Of a DNA stretch of 64,000 bases, positions 1,168 through 45,594 are shown piece after piece. Position numbers and translations under genes: made by a program. Within the stretch, counting starts at the first letter, position 1, and each line of letters starts with the position of its first letter. This DNA comes from Brucella rhizosphaerae (GTDB lineage Bacteria; Pseudomonadota; Alphaproteobacteria; Rhizobiales; Rhizobiaceae), in NCBI RefSeq assembly GCF_002252475.1, contig NZ_NNRK01000022.1:1-64000 (forward strand). Direction: 5' to 3'. The notes under the pieces are model-generated. The model was given only the letters and a program-made list of their open reading frames with translations. It searched no databases and was not told the origin of the DNA.

Positions 1168-1292
1168 CTTAAAACGAGAAAGCCCGCTGCACTGGGAGGA
1201 GGAGTGTGCAGCGGGCTGATCTGGAAAGCGCGACTGGGAGGAGGAGTGCCGCGCTTCGAGTTCAGTTTCTGGGAGGAGGAGTGAAACTGAAC
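1168..1292 (-). ncRNA. Triple-hairpin small RNA with anti-Shine-Dalgarno loops (cuckoo/CcsR/alpha-r14-like)
   Basis: On the minus strand three hairpins follow each other. Their arms are 1284-1292/1260-1268 (9 bp), 1250-1256/1226-1232 (7 bp) and 1207-1217/1181-1191 (11 bp). All three loops contain the same 15-mer (plus strand CTGGGAGGAGGAGTG at 1192, 1234 and 1269), read in the RNA as CACUCCUCCUCCCAG. The arms differ completely in sequence, so the loop is what is conserved. The last stem is followed by TTTCTCGTTTT, making it a rho-independent terminator. CCUCCUCCC loops are the hallmark of alphaproteobacterial cuckoo-type sRNAs, thought to pair with ribosome-binding sites. Family membership is by motif only. 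Confidence 0.75.
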
Positions 1293-1298
1293 AACCCC

Positions 1299-1327
1299 AA
1301 AATAGGAGCATGGCCCGCCACTTACAA
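1299..1327 (-). promoter_or_regulatory. Sigma-70-type promoter of the triple-hairpin RNA
   Basis: Minus strand: -35 TTGTAA (1327-1322), a 17-bp spacer and -10 TATTTT (1304-1299). This places transcription start close to 1292, exactly at the first hairpin of the RNA, so the transcript would be almost entirely the three hairpins. Confidence 0.6.
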
Positions 1328-1368: not shown

Positions 1369-1434
1369 AAAAAAGAAACCGCCCCGCAGCGATATACGCG
1401 CTGGGGCGGCTCTATCCTCCTCCAAGTGGAGCCG
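1369..1434 (-). ncRNA. Second terminated RNA with a GGAGGAGG loop, possible decoy
   Basis: Minus strand: hairpin CGGCTC/GAGCCG (1434-1429 with 1412-1407) exposes a 16-nt loop containing GGAGGAGG. It is followed by a strong terminator (arms 1409-1403 and 1385-1379 plus inner pairs) ending in TTTCTTTTTT. No start codon follows the SD-like motif within a usable distance, so it is not an obvious ribosome-binding site. The loop is complementary to the CCUCCUCC loops of the RNA just downstream. The bases at 1407-1409 are shared by both stems, so the two folds compete at the base. The 5' end is not defined. Confidence 0.45.
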
Positions 1435-1483
1435 ACAATAACGGCAAGCTGTTAAAAAGCAACCCCTTAATATCCGCCGTCGA

Positions 1484-1754: not shown

Positions 1755-1835
1755 TGATTAATATAGCCTCCCATTTAATATGAGTCTTTTTATCATCTTA
1801 GTGGCATGACGGCGGAAGCCAATACGGGGGTTGCA

Positions 1836-3950
1836 ATGAAAGTGAAGTCAAAACGCGGTGGCTATCTGTTGGAAACAACAGTTCTGGGCGGGGCAATTGG
1901 TTTGGGTCTTCTGGCGGCAATGCCCGCTTTTGGACAAACTGTTCAGAATCAGAAGACAGCAGAGGAAGGTCAGCAAGCTCAAAAGAAAGAGCAGGCACTT
2001 CAGCTCGATACAATCACCATTTCGCCAACCATCCAGAACCAGGCTGCTATTGATGCCATGGCATCGACAAGCGTCATCACGCAGCAGCAGCTTGATCGCA
2101 TTCAGGCAACCACTGCCGCTGACATTTTCCGTTCCACACCCGGCGTACATGCGTCCCTGAATGGTGATGATCCTGCGACATCCATCAATATTCGCGGCCT
2201 TCAGGAATACGGTCGTGTCGCAGTAACTATTGACGGCGCACGTCAGGATTATTGGCGCGTCGGTCACGGCTCAGGCTCATTCTATATCGACCCGGAAATG
2301 CTCAAGCAGGTAACGGTCATTCGCGGACCTGTTTCCAATGCCTATGGTTCTGGTGGCATCGGCGGTCTTGTTGCTTTTGAAACCAAGGATGCGGGCGATT
2401 TCCTTCGCGATGATGAAACATGGGCGTTAAGCGAAAAGCTGCGCTATGAAAGCAATGGAAACGGCTGGATGACCAGCACGGTGGGCGCCTATCGCTTGAA
2501 CCCCAATTTCGATGTCATCGGCAATATCAACTATCGTGACAGCGATGCTTACAAGAATGGTGATGGCGATGTCGTTCGCTGGACTGGCGAACGTGTGGTC
2601 AGCGGACTTGGTAAAGTCACAATCCGACCGGCTGATGGTCACGAAATAAAACTCGGTTTCCAGCGCCAGAAATATAATGACATTATGACAGGCAGCAGCG
2701 GATCAACGTCCAGCACATTGTCGCGTTATAATGCCGAAACGATTGTCAGCACTTATACAGGTAACTACACCTATAAGCCGGACGATAATCCGTTCTGGGA
2801 CCTGTCGGTCAATGCCTATTATAGTGACACCGACAATGACCAGTATCAGGTCTGGCCAAAGGCCAACATCGGCAAGAGCCGTTATTACGATGTTTCGACG
2901 GCTGGTTTCCGCGCCTATAACAGTTCACGCTTTGAGACAGCTGCCATGAGCCACACGCTCACCTATGGCGTGGACTATTACAAAATGCGCGGTGAATCTG
3001 ACACCGACAATTTTGGTAATGGCGAGCAACAGGCTTACGGCGGCGTTATTCAGTGGCAGGGCGATTATCAGAAGTGGCTCGAACTGATCGGGGCTCTACG
3101 GTACGATGGCTACCGTCTCGACGGCACAACCAAGGCTACCAATGTTTTGCCATCCGACGACGTAAGCGTGGACGGCAATCGCGTTTCCCCGCGTTTCAGT
3201 GTTGGTGTAACGCCTTGGGATGGTGTGCAATTTTATGGCCTTTATTCGCAGGGCTATCGCGTTCCACATATGCAGGACATGTTCAGGCAGAATGGCGCGC
3301 ACGGCTCAGGTTATGAACCGAACCTGCTTCTTAAGCCAGAAGTCGCAACCTCGTATGAATTTGGTATCAATCTGCGTCAGGACGGTGTTCTGGATGGGGG
3401 TGATCAAGTCCGCGCGAAGCTCAATTTCTTCCATACCGACGTCAAGAACTACATCAATACCGTCAAAACCGGCAATGTAACGACATCCGAAAATGTCGGC
3501 GATGCGCGCCTGCGCGGCGTCGAACTCGAAGGTACCTATGACAATTGGTGGGGCTATGTGAACCTTGGTGCTTCTTATACTGCCGCAGAGATGAAGGATG
3601 GCGTTTACAAGGGTGAAAGCCTGAGCAATACACCGCTCAACAACTTCAGTGCAACACTTGGACTCAAGGCGTTTGAAGAAAAACTTGTCTACGGTGTCGA
3701 ATATGAAAGTGTCGGCAAGGTCAATCGGGCGCTTACAACGGGCGGAGTCAAAGTTTATCCGCGCGTTGATCTCGTGAATGTATTCGCCAACTGGCAAGTC
3801 ACCGACAATGTGAAGCTCGACTTTGGCGTCGATAACCTCTTCAACAAAGCCTACACCGACGCGCAGACCGGCTGGGCTACCAGCACAGATATCGAACAGG
3901 CGAAGGGGCGCACCTTCAAGGTTGCCATCACCGGTCGCATCGGCGGCTGA
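1836..3950 (+). CDS. bhuA: TonB-dependent heme/hemoglobin-type outer-membrane receptor
   Basis: Outer-membrane TonB-dependent receptor of the hemoglobin/transferrin/lactoferrin family, likely importing heme like Brucella BhuA. The start at 1836 (after GGGGG) gives a signal peptide with a hydrophobic run ending in AMPAFGQ. A plug domain follows (about residues 50-170, with the TonB-box-like LDTITISP before it and the RGLQEYGR and VIRGPVSNAYG motifs). A 22-strand barrel region comes next, ending in a TonB C-terminal segment (FGVDNLFNKAY). An in-frame ATG at 1806 would add 10 residues but has no clear SD. A RirA-type box lies upstream. The gene symbol is by similarity to BhuA as I recall it; the exact ligand is not proven. 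Confidence 0.8.
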   Translation: MKVKSKRGGYLLETTVLGGAIGLGLLAAMPAFGQTVQNQKTAEEGQQAQKKEQALQLDTITISPTIQNQAAIDAMASTSVITQQQLDRIQATTAADIFRSTPGVHASLNGDDPATSINIRGLQEYGRVAVTIDGARQDYWRVGHGSGSFYIDPEMLKQVTVIRGPVSNAYGSGGIGGLVAFETKDAGDFLRDDETWALSEKLRYESNGNGWMTSTVGAYRLNPNFDVIGNINYRDSDAYKNGDGDVVRWTGERVVSGLGKVTIRPADGHEIKLGFQRQKYNDIMTGSSGSTSSTLSRYNAETIVSTYTGNYTYKPDDNPFWDLSVNAYYSDTDNDQYQVWPKANIGKSRYYDVSTAGFRAYNSSRFETAAMSHTLTYGVDYYKMRGESDTDNFGNGEQQAYGGVIQWQGDYQKWLELIGALRYDGYRLDGTTKATNVLPSDDVSVDGNRVSPRFSVGVTPWDGVQFYGLYSQGYRVPHMQDMFRQNGAHGSGYEPNLLLKPEVATSYEFGINLRQDGVLDGGDQVRAKLNFFHTDVKNYINTVKTGNVTTSENVGDARLRGVELEGTYDNWWGYVNLGASYTAAEMKDGVYKGESLSNTPLNNFSATLGLKAFEEKLVYGVEYESVGKVNRALTTGGVKVYPRVDLVNVFANWQVTDNVKLDFGVDNLFNKAYTDAQTGWATSTDIEQAKGRTFKVAITGRIGG

Positions 3951-18486: not shown

Positions 18487-18754
18487 GTTTCCCTCCCTTT
18501 TTTTGCCAGTTTAACATATCCGGCGGATAAAGGAAAAACGCGCAAAGTTGCGGCTTGTTCCCGAGATATGGATTGCGAGCTTTCCGCCCGGAAGTGCTTA
18601 CTTGCCCTGGAAGACAGTTCATTTCGTCTTCGGACTGAAATACCAATCCGGCAACCTCGATCAGCCCAAAGATTAGAATGAAATCCCACTGAGCTGAATC
18701 GCACGACGTTTAATCACTATTGCCAGCGAGCATCAGTTTGAGTAAAAGTATCGT

Positions 18755-18833
18755 CACATCAAGAGTTGGGGCGACGCCCAACGCCAACCTGCCTTTCCGG
18801 GCAAGGTGGTACTTCCTTAAAAGGAAGGATGTG
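18755..18833 (+). promoter_or_regulatory. SAM-I-clan riboswitch upstream of metA
   Basis: P1 is CACATC (18755-18760) with GATGTG (18828-18833). Inside are the SAM-I core strings ATCAAGAG (18758-18765), GCCAACC (18783-18789) and AGGTGGTA, each in its normal position relative to the helices. P2 (GTTGGG/CCCAAC), P3 (TGCC/GGCA) and a short P4 (CTTCC/GGAAG) are present. P2 lacks the usual long kink-turn arm, so it resembles the compact SAM-I/IV variants. No U-run terminator follows. Instead CGCGTC (18865-18870) and GACGCG (18893-18898) bracket the metA SD, so translational control is likely. Confidence 0.7.
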
Positions 18834-18900
18834 GCCAACCGGCAAATATACGGATGAAGCCACGCGCGTCTGCTCTGACACAACGAAGGACCGACGCGAC

Positions 18901-38724: not shown

Positions 38725-38753
38725 CTGAATTTCAGTAATTTCTGAAAGTTCAG
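38725..38753. promoter_or_regulatory. Nested palindromic operator candidate before the cyd regulator
   Basis: Core TTTCAGTAATTTCTGAAA (38730-38747), with outer CTGAA/TTCAG arms (38725-38729 and 38749-38753). The nested inverted repeat ends 20 bp before the regulator start, a good place for autorepression. The core also occurs at 1485-1502 on the other strand. Confidence 0.6.
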
Positions 38754-38772
38754 AATTTACGGGAGAGAGAAC

Positions 38773-39357
38773 TTGGAATTATCGCCAATTGTTCAGTCGT
38801 TTGTACTCCACTTCGGAGAGATGGGTAGCCGCTGGGGTATCAATCGTACGGTTGGACAGATTTATGCGCTGCTCTATCTATCGTCTGAACCCTTGTGTGC
38901 GGATGATATCGTTGATGCGCTTGGTGTTTCGCGCTCCAACGTCTCGATGGGTATCCGCGAATTACAGGGCTGGAATCTTGTACTGCTAAAGCACATACCC
39001 GGTGATCGTCGTGACTTTTTCACGACCCCCGGCGACGTATGGCTGATTTTGCGAACGCTTGCAGAAGAACGCAAGAAGCGCGAAATCGATCCGACCCTGA
39101 CCGTACTTCGCGAAGTGCTGATGGAACAGCCGGAGAGCGACAGCGACCGATTTGCGCAAGATCGCATGAAGGACATGTACGCACTCATCGAGCGGCTGAC
39201 CAACTGGTACGACGACGTCAAGAAACTCGATACAGACAGATTGACCAGCCTTCTGGCGCTTGGCGCCAAGGTAACCCGCTTCCTGGAAACCACAGACAAG
39301 ATCGTGGCGCTGGGACGTGGGAGAGCATCGGCCAAAAAGGAGCCTAAACGAGAGTGA
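38773..39357 (+). CDS. GbsR/MarR family transcriptional regulator of the cyd operon
   Basis: 194-aa winged-helix regulator of the GbsR subgroup. The DNA-binding region is GINRTVGQIYALLYLSSEPL, then DDIVDALGVSRSNVSMGIREL and the wing GDRRDFFTTPGDVW, all in the first 90 residues. The C-terminal half is helical and probably a dimer/effector domain. The TTG start at 38773 has GGGAGAGAGA upstream. Its stop overlaps the cydD GTG start, so regulator and cyd genes form one operon. The palindrome at 38725 is a likely binding site; the signal is unknown. Confidence 0.85.
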   Translation: MELSPIVQSFVLHFGEMGSRWGINRTVGQIYALLYLSSEPLCADDIVDALGVSRSNVSMGIRELQGWNLVLLKHIPGDRRDFFTTPGDVWLILRTLAEERKKREIDPTLTVLREVLMEQPESDSDRFAQDRMKDMYALIERLTNWYDDVKKLDTDRLTSLLALGAKVTRFLETTDKIVALGRGRASAKKEPKRE

Positions 39358-41093
39358 AACCCGTTGCCCCCCGAACGGAAGACGCGGCACAACAAGACGG
39401 CGAAACATCTGGCGACAAACGTCGCCCGCGTCGGCGTCCAGTTCCGTCTCTGCTCAAAACGGGGGCAAGGCTTCAGGCCGTGGCAGCGCTTCTATGGCTG
39501 CCACAGGCCGCACTTCTCGCCTACGGGGTAGGTTATCTCGCCAATACTGGTTTTGATGCCACAATCTATTATCTTGCTGCTGGGTTGTTTCTTCTTGGTT
39601 GTTTACGCAGCCTTCTGGATGCGCGCGGCGCGACAATGGCTTTCGATGCCGCACGAAGCGAATTGGCCAGCCTGCGCGAAAAGGCAGTAACGGCATTATC
39701 GCAGCGCTCACCTCTTGATACATTCCGCCCATCTTCAGGGGAGGCGGCCAGCATACTCGCCGAACAGGCCGAGATGGTCGTTCCATATCTCTCTCGTTTT
39801 GTACCTGTTCGCATTCGCGTCATGCTGGTTCCACTGGCAATTCTCGTAGTTGTCTTGTGGTTTTCCTGGATTGCAGCGCTCATCCTGCTGATTGCAGCAC
39901 CTTTGATCCCAATTTTCATGGCACTGATCGGCTGGCGCGCAAAAGCGGCCAGTGAAAAACAGCTTGTTGCATTGGGCGATATGAATGGTTTTCTGCTTGA
40001 TCGCCTGCGGGGACTGGCAACAATTCGTAGCTTTAACGCCGTCGATATGACCGCCACGCGTCTTCGCGATAATGCCGAGACGTTGCGCAGAAAGACAATG
40101 ATTGTTCTGCGTATCGCTTTCCTGTCATCTGCTGTTCTTGAACTCTTCGCGGCCCTTGGGGTTGCGATGGTGGCTGTTTACATTGGCTTTCATCTGCTCG
40201 GCCCGCTGGGCTTTGGAGCATGGGGACATCAGCTAAGCCTCGCTGAAGGCTTGTTCATTCTGCTGCTTGCACCCGCATTCTTTGAACCTCTGCGCGATCT
40301 GTCCGCCGTTTGGCATGACAGAGCATCTGGTGAAGCAGCCATTGATGCACTGGAAGAACTCGCAAAGCATGAAATGCCGGTTGTAGGCAGCAGCATCGCC
40401 GCCGAAGAAGTCAACAACGCACCTTCGCTGATGTTGCGGGATATCCGCTTTCGTTATTCCACTGGAGAGGATGTCTTCAGCGGCTTTAATCTGGATATTG
40501 AGCCAGGCGAGCATGTGGCACTTCTTGCGCCAAGTGGTTTTGGTAAGTCGACATTGCTCGCGCTAATTGCCGGACTAGCTGCACCGCAAGAAGGCCAGAT
40601 CACGATTGGCGGTGTGACACTTCAGAATGAAACCGCCGCAACCCTTCGGGCAAGAATGCGTTGGGTCGGTCAGAAGCCGCATATTTTTGCTGGCAGCGCG
40701 CGACACAATATAACGCTTGGCCGTCATGCTGATGCTGAGAAGACCGCGTCAATCATCAACCAGATGGCCTTGAGCCATGTCGCCGGCATTACCGGAACCG
40801 GTGTGATTGGTGAAAATGGTGCAGGACTTTCTGGCGGTGAAGCACTTCGATTGGCCTTGGCACGCATTGCTGTGGATCAAAACGCTGACATCATTCTCGC
40901 TGATGAACCAACTGCACATCTTGACCACGAAACGGCGGACCGCATTGCTGATAGTTTGATCAGCCTCGCCAAAGGCAAGACGCTCATCATCTCAACCCAT
41001 GACGAGAAACTTGCAGGTCGGATGGACCGCATCGTTCGGCTCAATGATTTGAGTGGTAACGCGCAAATCTGGCAGAAGAGGGCAGCAGAATGA
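39354..41093 (+). CDS. cydD: Thiol reductant ABC exporter subunit CydD
   Basis: 579-aa half of the CydDC heterodimer, which exports glutathione/cysteine to the periplasm and is needed to assemble cytochrome bd. Six membrane helices lie between about residues 40 and 320. The nucleotide-binding domain has Walker A APSGFGKST, Q-loop VGQKPHIF, signature LSGGEALR and Walker B IILADEPTAHLD. The N-terminal 35 residues are charged and probably cytoplasmic. The GTG start overlaps the regulator stop by 4 bases. Confidence 0.9.
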   Translation: MKPVAPRTEDAAQQDGETSGDKRRPRRRPVPSLLKTGARLQAVAALLWLPQAALLAYGVGYLANTGFDATIYYLAAGLFLLGCLRSLLDARGATMAFDAARSELASLREKAVTALSQRSPLDTFRPSSGEAASILAEQAEMVVPYLSRFVPVRIRVMLVPLAILVVVLWFSWIAALILLIAAPLIPIFMALIGWRAKAASEKQLVALGDMNGFLLDRLRGLATIRSFNAVDMTATRLRDNAETLRRKTMIVLRIAFLSSAVLELFAALGVAMVAVYIGFHLLGPLGFGAWGHQLSLAEGLFILLLAPAFFEPLRDLSAVWHDRASGEAAIDALEELAKHEMPVVGSSIAAEEVNNAPSLMLRDIRFRYSTGEDVFSGFNLDIEPGEHVALLAPSGFGKSTLLALIAGLAAPQEGQITIGGVTLQNETAATLRARMRWVGQKPHIFAGSARHNITLGRHADAEKTASIINQMALSHVAGITGTGVIGENGAGLSGGEALRLALARIAVDQNADIILADEPTAHLDHETADRIADSLISLAKGKTLIISTHDEKLAGRMDRIVRLNDLSGNAQIWQKRAAE

Positions 41094-42772
41094 ACGGACT
41101 TCAATCGCTCCGCCCGATCCTGCAACTCTTCTTCCGTACAAAAGGGATGATGCTCTATGCGGGTATTGCAGCTGCAACGGCGACGGTTCTTGCCGGGATT
41201 GCGCTGCTCGGTCTGTCCGGATGGTTTATCACAGCCACTGCCATCGCTGGCTTGAGTTTGGCAACCGCCGTTGTATTCGATGTTTTCGCACCAGCTGCCG
41301 GCATTCGTCTTCTTGCAATTTTAAGAACAGGCGCACGTTATCTGGAGCGCCTTGTAACTCATGACGCAACGCTCGCCATTCTTGCAGCGCTTCGCGAAAA
41401 GCTGTTCCGCAGCTGGGCTCGTCCCGCAGCAGCAAGTGCGTTGCTCAAACGACCAGCACGACTTCTGTTCAGGTTAACCGCTGATATCGATGCGCTTGAT
41501 TCACTTTATCTCCGCGTTCTCGTGCCAGCAGGTGCAGCTTTCGCCACAGCGCTCGTTGCGGGTGTGGCACTTGGGCTAATGCATCCGCTTTTTGGTCTGA
41601 TTATCGCTTTGACACTGCTTGTTGTCGGACTGGGACTACCGCTCAATGCAGCCAAGCGTGCTGAAAAACCGATGCGTCGGCGTGCCAAGGGTACCGAAGC
41701 ATTGCGGGCGCGAACGGTTGATCTGGTTGCAGGACAGACCGAACTCATCATGGCTGGCCGCATGGACAGTCAGAATGCGAGCATCATACGCGCCGACAAT
41801 TACATTGCATCGAGCGACCGCGTTCTCAACCGCATTGAAATTTCGGCGGGTGCCGGTCTGGGCATTCTTCATGCGGGTCTTCTCGCCGGTGGACTGGTTG
41901 GTGCCGGTCTGCTCATGCAAGCCGGACTGATCAATGCCCCGGTAGCGGCGCTCGCATTGCTGATCATCCTCGGCGCGATGGAGCCATTTGCAGCACTGCG
42001 CCGTGGTGCGATGGAACTTGGCCGCACAATACTTGCCGCGCGCCGTGTGGCTCCGGCACTTGAAGCAACTGATACATTCCAGTCGCTGCCATCGCCCGCA
42101 AAGGGCAATGCAGTAAACCTCGAACAGGTTACCGTTCGCCATGAGGGTTCTACTGCGAAAGCGCTGGATGCGATCGACTTGAACATTGCCGTAGGTGATC
42201 GCGTCGCGATCATTGGCACCAGCGGTGCAGGCAAGTCTACACTTTTCAATGTGCTGGCAGGCGAGATCAATGCCGAAGACGGCAATGTCCGAGTTCTGCC
42301 AGCACGACTTCTGACCCAGCGAACTGAGCTTTTCAAAGATAGTCTTCGTAACAATCTCAGGCTCGCAAAGTCAGATGCAAGCGATGCGGAGTTAAACGCC
42401 GCATTGGAAGCCGCCGGTTTAGGCGACTTCATGAAAGCCCAGACCGAGGGACTGGATACGGTTTTGGGTGAGGGGGGACTTGGGCTCTCTGGCGGTCAGG
42501 CCAGACGCCTTGCTTTGGCTCGCTTGTTCCTGACTGACGCTCCTTTATGGCTCCTTGATGAGCCCACTGAAGGACTCGATCAGGCAACAGCAGAAGATGT
42601 GCTTTGCCGCCTCAATGAACAGGCCAAAGGCCGTACCTTGTTGATAGCAACGCATATTCAGCGTGAAGCACGCGTTTGTGATCGTGCAATTGTTTTGGAT
42701 CAAGGCGCGATCGTTCAATCGATGACCAAAAAAGAAGCCTCTTTCGACGACGTCCTCAAATTCTTGAGGTGA
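41090..42772 (+). CDS. cydC: Thiol reductant ABC exporter subunit CydC
   Basis: 560-aa partner of CydD with the same fused layout: helices to about residue 310 (LGLSGWFITATAIAGL is a CydC signature near the start), then an ATPase domain with Walker A GTSGAGKST, signature LSGGQARR and Walker B LWLLDEPTEGLD. The Q-loop region is short (LTQRTELFKDS). It overlaps cydD by 4 bases and is separated from cydA by 84 bp, which hold a GC-rich GCCGGAC-TTGCCGGC inverted element near 42830. Confidence 0.9.
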   Translation: MNGLQSLRPILQLFFRTKGMMLYAGIAAATATVLAGIALLGLSGWFITATAIAGLSLATAVVFDVFAPAAGIRLLAILRTGARYLERLVTHDATLAILAALREKLFRSWARPAAASALLKRPARLLFRLTADIDALDSLYLRVLVPAGAAFATALVAGVALGLMHPLFGLIIALTLLVVGLGLPLNAAKRAEKPMRRRAKGTEALRARTVDLVAGQTELIMAGRMDSQNASIIRADNYIASSDRVLNRIEISAGAGLGILHAGLLAGGLVGAGLLMQAGLINAPVAALALLIILGAMEPFAALRRGAMELGRTILAARRVAPALEATDTFQSLPSPAKGNAVNLEQVTVRHEGSTAKALDAIDLNIAVGDRVAIIGTSGAGKSTLFNVLAGEINAEDGNVRVLPARLLTQRTELFKDSLRNNLRLAKSDASDAELNAALEAAGLGDFMKAQTEGLDTVLGEGGLGLSGGQARRLALARLFLTDAPLWLLDEPTEGLDQATAEDVLCRLNEQAKGRTLLIATHIQREARVCDRAIVLDQGAIVQSMTKKEASFDDVLKFLR

Positions 42773-42856
42773 AATTTAAGTAGGGGGGCTGTGAGCCGAC
42801 GCAGTGTCGGGAACAGCTCGTAACATCAGGAGGGCCGGACTTGCCGGCTTAAAGAG

Positions 42857-44434
42857 ATGGAATTCGATATTGTCTCCCTGTCGAGATTGCAGTTTGCAAT
42901 CACGGCACTTTATCACTTCCTTTTCGTACCTCTGACATTGGGTCTATCCGTGTTGCTTGCCATCATGGAGACCGTTTATGTCATGACCGGACGGCTCATC
43001 TGGCGGCAGATGACCAAATTCTGGGGTACGCTGTTTGGTATCAACTTCGTTATGGGTGTTGCGACCGGCATTGTGATGGAATTTCAGTTCGGTATGAACT
43101 GGAGCTATTACAGCCATTATGTCGGCGACATTTTCGGAGCGCCGCTGGCCATTGAAGGCATGATGGCCTTCTTCCTGGAAGCGACCTTTGTCGGCCTGTT
43201 CTTCTTTGGCTGGGATCGGCTTTCCAAGGTTGGCCACCTCATGGCGACCTATGCGGTTGCTGCCGGTTCTAACTTCTCAGCGCTATGGATTCTGATCGCT
43301 AATGGCTGGATGCAAAATCCGGTTGGTTCGGCTTTCAATCCTGAAACCATGCGCATGGAAATCACCGACTTCTTTGCGGTTCTGATGAACCCGGTTGCTC
43401 AGGCGAAATTCGTGCACACGGTTTCGGCGGGCTATGTAACGGCTTCGATTTTCGTACTCGGCGTTTCAGCCTGGTATCTGTTGAAAGGGCGCTCAACCGA
43501 ACTTGCCAAACGGTCGATGACTGTCGCGGCATCTTTCGGTCTTGCCGCTTCTCTCTCAGTGGTCGTTCTCGGCGATGAAAGCGGTTATCTCGCAAACGAA
43601 CATCAGAAGATGAAAATCGCGGCCATTGAAGCCATGTGGGAAACAGAGCCAGCTCCGGCTTCCTTCACCGTCTTCGGTTTTCCAAATCAGGAAGCCCGTG
43701 AAACCCACTATGCCGTGCATATTCCCTGGGTCATGGGTCTGATCGGCACACGCTCGCTCACAACGCCTATCGAAGGCATTGAGCAGCTTGTCGAAAATGC
43801 GCAGGGACATATCCGCAAGGGTATCATCGCTTATGACGCGCTACAGAAAATCCGTGCAGCAGGCGATACAAGCGTTGTGCCGCAGGACGTGAAAGATCTG
43901 TTCGCCGATAACAGCCAATGGATGGGCTATGCGCTGCTTCTGAAGCGTTACGTCGATGATCCCCGTCAGGCGACGGATGCGCAGATCACGCAGGCTGCCA
44001 ATGATACAGTTCCCGGTGTACTGCCATTATTCTGGGCCTTCCGCATCATGGTCGGCATCGGCTTCTTCTTGATCCTGTTGACGGGCACATTCTTCGTGCT
44101 GTCGGCAAGACGCAAGCTGGATCGCCATCCATTCCTGCTCAAAGTCGCGGTCTTTGCAATTCCGTTGCCATGGATTGCCGCAGAAATGGGCTGGATAGTT
44201 GCCGAGTTCGGGCGACAGCCATGGATTATCGAAGGCATTCTGCCGACAGCAGTTGCTGTCTCCAATCTTGGTGCTTCTACGGTTCTTCTCACCATCGTCG
44301 GATTTGTCGCGATCTATACGGTCCTGTTCGTTATTGAAATGGGCCTGATGTTGCGCGCTATCAAAGCTGGTCCTGAACCGGACAGCAAACCAGAAGCAAA
44401 GCTTGCACCTGTAAGCATTGCGCCAGCGGAGTAA
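42857..44434 (+). CDS. cydA: Cytochrome bd ubiquinol oxidase subunit I
   Basis: 525-aa catalytic subunit that oxidises ubiquinol and carries hemes b558, b595 and d. Helices are visible throughout. His20 (TALYHFLFVP) fits the b595/d-site ligand, GTLFGINFVMGVATGIVMEF and MAFFLEATFVGLFFFGWDR by position are core signatures, and the Q-loop (about residues 240-330) is of the shorter type. Presence of cydDC and cydX beside it supports a true bd oxidase rather than a CioAB-type cyanide-insensitive oxidase. Confidence 0.95.
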   Translation: MEFDIVSLSRLQFAITALYHFLFVPLTLGLSVLLAIMETVYVMTGRLIWRQMTKFWGTLFGINFVMGVATGIVMEFQFGMNWSYYSHYVGDIFGAPLAIEGMMAFFLEATFVGLFFFGWDRLSKVGHLMATYAVAAGSNFSALWILIANGWMQNPVGSAFNPETMRMEITDFFAVLMNPVAQAKFVHTVSAGYVTASIFVLGVSAWYLLKGRSTELAKRSMTVAASFGLAASLSVVVLGDESGYLANEHQKMKIAAIEAMWETEPAPASFTVFGFPNQEARETHYAVHIPWVMGLIGTRSLTTPIEGIEQLVENAQGHIRKGIIAYDALQKIRAAGDTSVVPQDVKDLFADNSQWMGYALLLKRYVDDPRQATDAQITQAANDTVPGVLPLFWAFRIMVGIGFFLILLTGTFFVLSARRKLDRHPFLLKVAVFAIPLPWIAAEMGWIVAEFGRQPWIIEGILPTAVAVSNLGASTVLLTIVGFVAIYTVLFVIEMGLMLRAIKAGPEPDSKPEAKLAPVSIAPAE

Positions 44435-44439
44435 AGATC

Positions 44440-45594
44440 ATGATACTCAGCGACTTGTTGGACTATGAAACACTCCGCATCATCTGGTGGGTACTGCTCG
44501 GCGTATTGCTGATCGCCTTTGCTGCGATGGACGGTTTCGATCTTGGTGTCGGCATTCTGTTGCCGTTCGCCGGTAGAACGGATGTGGAGCGTCGTGTCGT
44601 CATAAACACCATCGGTCCCATTTGGGAAGGCAATCAGGTGTGGCTCATCCTTGGCGGCGGCGCTATCTTCGCCGCGTGGCCACCGCTTTATGCCGTATCG
44701 TTCTCAGGCTTCTATCTGGCAATGTTCCTCATATTGTTTGCCCTGATCCTGCGTCCGGTTGGCTTCAAATATCGTTCCAAGCGCGATAGCGTTGCTTGGC
44801 GTACCGGCTGGGACTGGGCTTTGTTCATCGGCGGTTTTGTGCCTTCGCTGATCTTCGGCGTTGCGGTCGGAAACGTACTGCAAGGCGTGCCATTCCGTTT
44901 CAACGACGATCTCCAGATCTTCTATGACGGAACATTCTTCGGCCTGCTCAATCCGTTCGCACTGCTTTGCGGCCTGCTTTCGGTCGCAATGCTGACGATG
45001 CTCGGCGCGGGATGGCTTGTACTGAAGACCACTGGCGAGGTGCAGGCAAGGGCGCGTTCATATGGCAGCATCGCAGCGCTGCTGACGACCGTACTCTACG
45101 TGTTGGCAGGTATCGTCAGCTGGCTCTGGGTGTCGGGTTATACGATCACAAGTGCTGTTGTCACGGGTGGACCATCGAACCCATTGCGCAAGGCGGTTGA
45201 ACTGGATCACGGTGCATGGTTCGTCAATTATACGAACTATCCGATCCTGCTGATCGCGCCTGCACTTGGTATTCTTGGTCCGCTGCTGCTTTTCATCACG
45301 CTTCGCAGCAAACGAGAGATAGCACCAATACTTATCGGTCAGCTATCGATCTTCGGCATCATCGCCTCGGTTGGTGTTTCGATGTTCCCGTTCATTCTGC
45401 CATCTTCGATCGATCCACGTTCGAGCCTGACAGTATGGGATTCATCGTCGAGCCATATGACCTTGTTCATCATGCTTGTTGTGACGCTGATCTTCCTTCC
45501 ACTCATCGTTGCGTATACCTCATGGGTCTACAAAGTTCTCTGGGGCAAGGTTGAGAAGGAAATGATCGAAGACGAAAGCAACCACGCTTATTAA
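44440..45594 (+). CDS. cydB: Cytochrome bd ubiquinol oxidase subunit II
   Basis: 384-aa membrane subunit pairing with CydA. The N-terminal MDGFDLGVGILLPF and WEGNQVWLILGGGAIFAAWP regions are family signatures, with eight to nine helices predicted. It starts 5 bp after the cydA stop. Confidence 0.95.
   Translation: MILSDLLDYETLRIIWWVLLGVLLIAFAAMDGFDLGVGILLPFAGRTDVERRVVINTIGPIWEGNQVWLILGGGAIFAAWPPLYAVSFSGFYLAMFLILFALILRPVGFKYRSKRDSVAWRTGWDWALFIGGFVPSLIFGVAVGNVLQGVPFRFNDDLQIFYDGTFFGLLNPFALLCGLLSVAMLTMLGAGWLVLKTTGEVQARARSYGSIAALLTTVLYVLAGIVSWLWVSGYTITSAVVTGGPSNPLRKAVELDHGAWFVNYTNYPILLIAPALGILGPLLLFITLRSKREIAPILIGQLSIFGIIASVGVSMFPFILPSSIDPRSSLTVWDSSSSHMTLFIMLVVTLIFLPLIVAYTSWVYKVLWGKVEKEMIEDESNHAY

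Follow-up and report, generated by a model that had tools for sequence, protein, structure and literature searches.

A conserved Shine-Dalgarno-like unit upstream of an αr14 RNA gene in Brucella rhizosphaerae, a candidate decoy behind a putative CydE operator

In this study we describe a short conserved unit that lies just upstream of an αr14 ("cuckoo") RNA gene in Brucella rhizosphaerae, near the start of a stretch of 64,000 nucleotides (nt) of contig NZ_NNRK01000022.1 (hereafter the window, whose positions are used throughout). The unit, which we call SDm for Shine-Dalgarno mimic, occupies 1369-1433 of the minus strand, some 70 nt upstream of αr14 and on the same strand, and from its sequence we infer a separate small RNA (sRNA) gene of about 60-65 nt, whose 5' end is an estimate. 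We favour, with modest confidence, the reading that SDm acts in trans as a decoy for the αr14 family under the control of a CydE-like protein; such control seems probable, since the palindrome in front of SDm has its only other exact genomic copy in front of the regulator gene of the cytochrome bd (cyd) operon.

In the mechanism that we infer, the loops of αr14 would block ribosome-binding sites of mRNAs, as those of NfeR1 do elsewhere, and SDm would be transcribed alone and ended by its own terminator. The SDm core would imitate a Shine-Dalgarno sequence with no conserved start codon behind it, and SDm would base-pair with the αr14 loops and titrate or destabilise αr14 RNAs, including those from copies elsewhere in the genome. 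The CydE-like protein would govern the SDm promoter, in one direction or the other, so that the brake on αr14-controlled mRNAs would be lifted when CydE permits, and the switching of cyd would thereby adjust the translation of αr14 targets. Since αr14 was found in 106 of the 111 family genomes sampled (above the cut-off in 100) and its copies share one seed, the control of that seed is a natural question; a decoy encoded beside αr14 and controlled from the operator of a respiratory-oxidase regulator would, if true, provide a concrete answer, and would extend the newly found sponges for anti-Shine-Dalgarno (anti-SD) sRNAs, as represented by CrfA, to a second family.

The conserved unit upstream of αr14

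When 25 orthologous loci chosen by their αr14 were aligned, conservation was found to extend past the αr14 promoter. In the sense of transcription, the conserved parts are an 18-base-pair (bp) palindrome, TTTCAGTAATTTCTGAAA (1485-1502, 57 bp before the core); promoter-like boxes, GGGGTTGC..GTTATTG (1436-1466, minus strand), of which TTGC and TTATT are invariant; the core ACTTGGAGGA; and a GC-rich hairpin, CCGCCCC..GGGGCGG, with the T-run TTTCTTTTTT (1369-1409, minus strand). The core (ACTTGGAGGAG at 1417-1427, minus strand) keeps its first 10 nt, the G-rich ACUUGGAGGA / ACTTGGAGGA, in 25 of 25 loci that had been selected by αr14 and not by the core, and other bases of the upstream stretch drift.

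Among 23 distinct copies of SDm the terminator hairpin is strong and nearly invariant. This set was collected with a pattern that contains the 10 nt of the core, so its core invariance is partly a matter of construction, and the fair test of core conservation is the 25-locus alignment. The latter was drawn from 30 loci (L046-L075), of which L073 and L074 are without SDm, L075 has it farther upstream, and L066 and L068 were left out, being missed by the αr14 pattern; L058 and L061, which are among the 25, were excluded from alignment A5 for length shifts. Close copies of SDm are present in 29 of the 35 genus genomes. As an Rfam family SDm was considered and rejected, the best chance matches reaching 13.6-15.1 bits against cut-offs of 40-90.

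It might be argued that only the αr14 copy matters and that SDm is an inactive remnant, for example of an inverted αr14 hairpin module. An origin of this kind is plausible, since the core is the antisense of the αr14 loop save for one base. Core, terminator and palindrome are nevertheless conserved genus-wide amid drifting bases, the distance from palindrome to core staying within 55-57 bp at all 28 loci, and we find an inactive remnant hardly credible.

Judged by title or the start of the abstract, the papers surveyed gave no earlier description of an SDm-like RNA; supplementary sRNA catalogues lay outside that search, and an unlabelled listing there is possible. A term search of a review of Brucella sRNAs (PMC9751625) gave zero hits each for Shine, sponge, NfeR, r14 and cyd.

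The αr14 RNA

The hairpin cluster downstream of SDm is confirmed, and it belongs to the known αr14 family. A first-pass annotation of the bare sequence had proposed a kinship with cuckoo RNAs for 1168-1327, and the RNA proved to be itself a member of the family, matching RF02344 at 1177-1296 of the minus strand with 83.8 bits against a gathering cut-off of 58.8 (cmscan); the annotated interval spans this RNA together with its promoter. Minus-strand 1296-1172 folds into three hairpins and a 3-bp helix enclosing the third (-52.8 kcal/mol; z = -8.5, with 0 of 200 shuffles equally good), and the CCUCCUCCC motif is unpaired in each hairpin while the stems vary. Motif scan, fold and covariation agree on hairpin 1 at 1260-1292, hairpin 2 at 1225-1257 and hairpin 3 at 1181-1217, with CCTCCTCCC at 1271-1279, 1236-1244 and 1194-1202, respectively, all on the minus strand. 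These are the three copies of CCTCCTCCC in the window, where the shuffle mean is 0.25 and three copies were reached in 0 of 100 shuffles.

The three minus-strand hairpins with differing stems and one identical loop are thus present as annotated, with the qualification that the 15-mer they share, CACTCCTCCTCCCAG, takes in the closing pair, so that the unpaired loop is 13 nt and not 15. The last hairpin had been read as a terminator as well: a 12-bp stem followed by UUUCUCGUUUU is indeed terminator-like, but the U-run is modest, and it was not among the features listed by a simple scanner restricted to loops of 3-8. The promoter, TTGTAA-N17-TATTTT, reads as proposed at 1299-1327 of the minus strand, with boxes that fall within well conserved blocks of the 25-locus alignment; they too went unlisted by the simple scanner.

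Across 23 distinct orthologues of the window copy, 26 of the 64 stem columns vary, as do 12 of the 18 others, but none of the 39 loop columns does, which bears out the suggestion of conserved loops on divergent stems; loops drifting like stems were looked for in these orthologues and were not seen. Stem cells form standard pairs in 98.9% of cases versus 93.9% in shuffles, and compensatory cells, with both sides changed, number 57 versus 21.0 in shuffles, a signal that is lost on sliding the partners. Further pair types (21) show no excess over shuffles (21.8).

In the parts of the published record available to us, the αr14 family (RF02344; SmelA075; NfeR1) is described as a set of three hairpins whose loops carry CCUCCUCCC and whose stems vary (PMC3927594), the motif being termed 'ultraconserved' (PMC10746234), and the window copy resembles it in these identical loops and variable stems, in several copies per genome and in a sigma-70-like promoter. 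In NfeR1, the Sinorhizobium meliloti member, three anti-SD motifs act redundantly and silence mRNAs (PMC7143759, PMC8844928, PMC10746234), in agreement with the annotated role of a multivalent binder of ribosome-binding sites. The other annotated role, an mRNA titrator, finds no support in the NfeR1 literature as available, and the upstream SDm is the better titrator candidate. Since the three-hairpin design was in print by 2011, the αr14 object itself is ordinary, a further example of an already known kind whose RNA has no observed difference from the family. The difference lies in the SDm unit that precedes it, of which the αr14 and NfeR1 literature, as far as available, makes no mention; with SDm and αr14 apparently standing under a CydE-type operator, it is the tandem arrangement and the operator that seem new.

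Neither this conserved unit nor the other αr14 copies of the genome had been remarked on in the annotation. Five αr14 copies, the window copy included, score above the cut-off in this Brucella (ex-Ochrobactrum) genome: one (C8:187514) has an upstream element of the same kind as at the window locus, another (C27:691806) is free-standing, and directly upstream of two (C18:295118, L002; C8:292214, L005) lies the end of a small open reading frame (ORF). We take these small ORFs, which were recognised by eye and not by profile, to be of the DUF1127 type; αr14 stands behind small ORFs so read in other genera likewise. As reported in the available text, the CcsR sRNAs of Rhodobacter are cotranscribed with a small protein gene, ccaF1. 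Across the genus, αr14 occurs in 35 of 35 genomes with 3-8 matches each, 183 in sum. Among plasmid records only the αr14 part was matched, in Rhizobium and Neorhizobium.

Paralogues of SDm and their linkage to αr14

A covariance model built solely from the 23 close SDm copies (R1) was run on the 35 genus genomes and returned 51 matches at E<=0.01. Close copies account for 29 of these, each from a different genome, and the other 22 are diverged and score 30.7-43.2 bits. Just upstream of an αr14 and on its strand lie 28 of the 29 close and 22 of the 22 diverged matches. A wider model trained on both kinds (R2) returned 58 matches at E<1e-4 in 32 of the 35 genomes, and 56 of the 58 are followed by αr14 after 54-210 nt (51 by the coordinates of part of the αr14 matches, five confirmed by sequence). 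The automatic structure of R2 is imperfect, as type 3 is shifted by a base, and of seven weaker matches (E 0.002-0.05) G019:C6 alone was examined further. A second unit in G019 has decayed in both members, SDm scoring 28.0 bits and αr14 39.6 bits, and in ten genomes two SDm-αr14 units stand back to back. In a different genome of this genus (locus L143), a group II intron match (RF00029, 826-908, minus strand, 55.1 bits) adjoins an SDm-αr14 unit.

The window copy is of type 1, and types 2-5 were named by eye. All types are G-rich and partly complementary to CCUCCUCCCAG. Most copies of types 2 and 3 have a strong 5' hairpin with differing stems and a loop that keeps UUGGGG in 14 of 14 aligned copies, L066 (loop UUAGGGG) not being among the 14; types 4 and 5 mostly have UGGGAG, often closed by short stems.

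Such tight linkage might suggest that SDm is a leader acting in cis, with a CydE-controlled promoter and a terminator that gates read-through and so sets αr14 transcription. Its place on the same strand, 54-210 nt ahead of αr14 in the 56 linked cases, and a terminator lying between the two would both fit. Promoter-like boxes of its own are, however, conserved in front of αr14, a leader would leave the conservation of the core unexplained, and core, terminator and palindrome are retained in B. gallinifaecis L042, with L094 reading alike, where no αr14 follows. This retention is compatible with a trans-acting RNA, and we consider a cis leader quite unlikely. A solitary type 3 SDm with its loop intact was found at G028:C59.

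Complementarity between SDm and αr14

In type 1 the core plus two bases, ACUUGGAGGAGGA, is complementary to αr14 UCCUCCUCCCAGU at 12 of 13 positions, with 9 contiguous pairs to the loop in this species; three of the paired αr14 positions (AGU) border or belong to the stem in hairpins 2 and 3. The predicted energy of this core is -18.9 kcal/mol with the αr14 loop versus -12.0 with the tail of 16S ribosomal RNA, and in all 19 type 1 copies tested the αr14 loop is the stronger partner of the two. Opening is predicted to cost 3.3-7.0 kcal/mol for the core and nothing for the αr14 loops; with opening cost included, the predicted pairing is about -10 to -13. Among 51 crude leaders of ORFs in the window, the best reaches -18.8 with the αr14 loop and none surpasses SDm. 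Complementarity to a seed shared among siblings, as expected of a sponge, is thus found for type 1 and is weak for types 2 and 3. Taken with the counter-evidence given below, complementarity supports a decoy well in type 1, to a fair degree in types 4 and 5, and weakly in types 2 and 3.

CrfA of Caulobacter crescentus is, by analogy, the direct precedent for such decoy action: its G/A-rich stem loop inactivates the anti-SD αR8 sRNAs SisA-D (PMC12559287), and, like SDm, it presents a G/A-rich element complementary to an anti-SD motif common to a multi-copy alphaproteobacterial sRNA family. CrfA, as described in the available text, acts on αR8, is Hfq-dependent and is induced by carbon starvation, whereas SDm is linked to αr14 genes and to a CydE-type palindrome. 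QrrX of Vibrio cholerae (PMC9732341), which we liken to SDm by description and not by sequence, is similarly one RNA opposing a family of sibling sRNAs; qrrX, however, lies between vca0830 and vca0832, and the available text describes no tandem with a qrr gene.

The palindrome and the cytochrome bd operon

The exact palindrome occurs at two places only in the 4.9-Mb genome, both of them in the window. The second copy, at 38730-38747, is 25 bp upstream of the gene for a 194-amino-acid, CydE-like regulator (38773-39357, plus strand) that heads cydD, cydC, cydA and cydB (39354-45594, plus strand), 37 kb from αr14 and SDm on the same contig. The regulator is of the GbsR/MarR type, with Pfam MarR_2 and HTH_5 over their cut-offs; no NCBIfam model was above its cut-off, the best being CudC at 45.4 of 218 bits. 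For the cyd genes TIGR02857, TIGR02868 and TIGR00203 were over cut-off, and NF011677 (CydA) was below its own. The palindrome nearly equals TATTTCAGAAATTTCTGAAAGTTCA, the footprint of CydE, a GbsR-type repressor of cytochrome bd in Alishewanella sp. WH16-1 (PMC6096048). Because the site is shared with the regulator gene and so closely matches that footprint, type 1 SDm looks like a second target of the CydE-like regulator. For Alishewanella only the cyd promoter is described in the text available, whereas here a site also precedes SDm.

The arrangement extends across the genus. The pattern TTTCAGTANTTNNTGAAA, whose backwards control gave 0 in all 35 genomes, placed a site 25-26 bp before the regulator gene in 33 of the 35 (G022 and G026 have no site of any kind) and a site before type 1 SDm in 28, with two further sites at G001:C11 and G025:C334. 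G010, G017, G028 and G032, which are without type 1 SDm, have the regulator site only; in G012 the SDm site is one base off the strict pattern, so only the regulator site was counted.

The type 4 SDm of the B. rhizosphaerae genome (L003) has a different, 27-bp palindrome, ATAATCATACAAAAAGAGTATGATTAT, at C8:187311-187337, its single genomic site, and because this differs from the type 1 palindrome, SDm paralogues may answer to different signals. More tentatively, and short of an expectation, we speculate that the genus possesses an RNA-RNA rheostat in which cuckoo RNAs are paired in tandem with purpose-built Shine-Dalgarno-mimic decoys, the paralogues having different promoters or operators and the same target loops, so that several signals, CydE being one, might converge on one translational brake and link respiration to translation.

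In the leader of the CydE-like gene itself (38745-38775, plus strand), GGGAGAGAGAA precedes a TTG start, and this leader has a predicted pairing energy of -14.0 kcal/mol with the αr14 loop. Of the 51 crude leaders, which belong to longer ORFs and do not include that of the 194-amino-acid gene, just two are lower. A feedback target of αr14 in this leader is possible.

Weighing the decoy against its alternatives

Several observations count against SDm as a CydE-controlled decoy of αr14. When both strands of the window were scanned in 25-nt pieces at a step of 5, SDm came tenth for pairing with αr14; two of the nine pieces above it are the antisense of αr14 itself. Pairing as good as that of the real sequence is reached by 0-21 of 200 shuffles in the 19 type 1 copies (5 for the window copy), and for 12 of 14 copies of types 2 and 3 the figure rises to 23-120 of 200. 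The exposed loop of types 2 and 3, UUGGGGGCUU, pairs modestly with αr14 (-9.4 and -9.5 kcal/mol). Type 1 has no single conserved 5' hairpin; one was considered and rejected, RNAalifold pairing the core with the U-run, with compensatory change in 0 of 18 pairs and with folds that vary by copy.

To the same side belongs the finding that for the type 2 loop the 16S tail is a better partner (-11.7) than αr14. Together with the core's GGAGGAG, which resembles a strong Shine-Dalgarno sequence, this might point to an action on the ribosome, with SDm either binding the 30S subunit as a mimic or serving as mRNA for a tiny peptide. A peptide gene was rejected, there being no conserved start codon after the core: an ATG follows the G-rich stretch in four type 2 copies, but 34 of 43 SDm copies have no ATG, GTG or TTG at a usable distance. 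The terminator, moreover, starts a few nt after the core, and with the type 1 copies favouring the αr14 loop over the 16S tail, we regard a ribosomal role as very unlikely.

Types 4 and 5, in turn, also fit the αR8 10-mer (-14.2 to -16.0), almost as well as they fit αr14. SDm could then be a real sRNA whose main partners are other RNAs, whether CU-rich mRNAs or anti-SD sRNAs such as αR8/MmgR and AbcR, its neighbourhood with αr14 reflecting shared ancestry; the linkage could indeed go back to a single ancestral unit, the nearest precedent (CrfA) targets αR8, and 2 of the 58 SDm copies stand without αr14. Against this, the other 56 adjoin αr14, and for the type 1 SDm of the window the predicted pairing is much stronger to the αr14 loop (-18.9) than to the αR8 motif (-11.6). 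Other main partners seem to us unlikely.

The distribution of SDm also limits the decoy that we favour. By our own count about 127 of the 183 genus αr14 copies have no strong SDm match in front, and three of the 35 genus genomes (G010, G017, G032) have αr14 and no SDm match. Under strict filters, five of 247 family genomes had an SDm match, all five of this genus, and 39 genomes of other genera gave weak matches in two (E 0.03-0.04); on these searches SDm as a general Rhizobiaceae feature was rejected. At the loci L104-L133, where αr14 copies had been found by pattern, no SDm-like unit was recognised upstream by eye, though a few G-rich words are present. As to the operator, a third genomic place, C27:27322, carries the palindrome with one mismatch, and a site about 60-65 bp before the estimated SDm start would be unusual for a simple repressor; its position would be equally compatible with activation and with repression.

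Other features of the window

Divergent from SDm and the palindrome lies a gene for a TonB-dependent haem receptor (1806-3950, plus strand; TIGR01785 over cut-off), for which B. pituitosa, B. grignonensis and B. pseudogrignonensis are closest among eight named loci, at 95-96% identity. Farther along, the window contains a SAM-I/IV riboswitch aptamer (RF01725) at 18751-18859 of the plus strand, with 60.3 bits.
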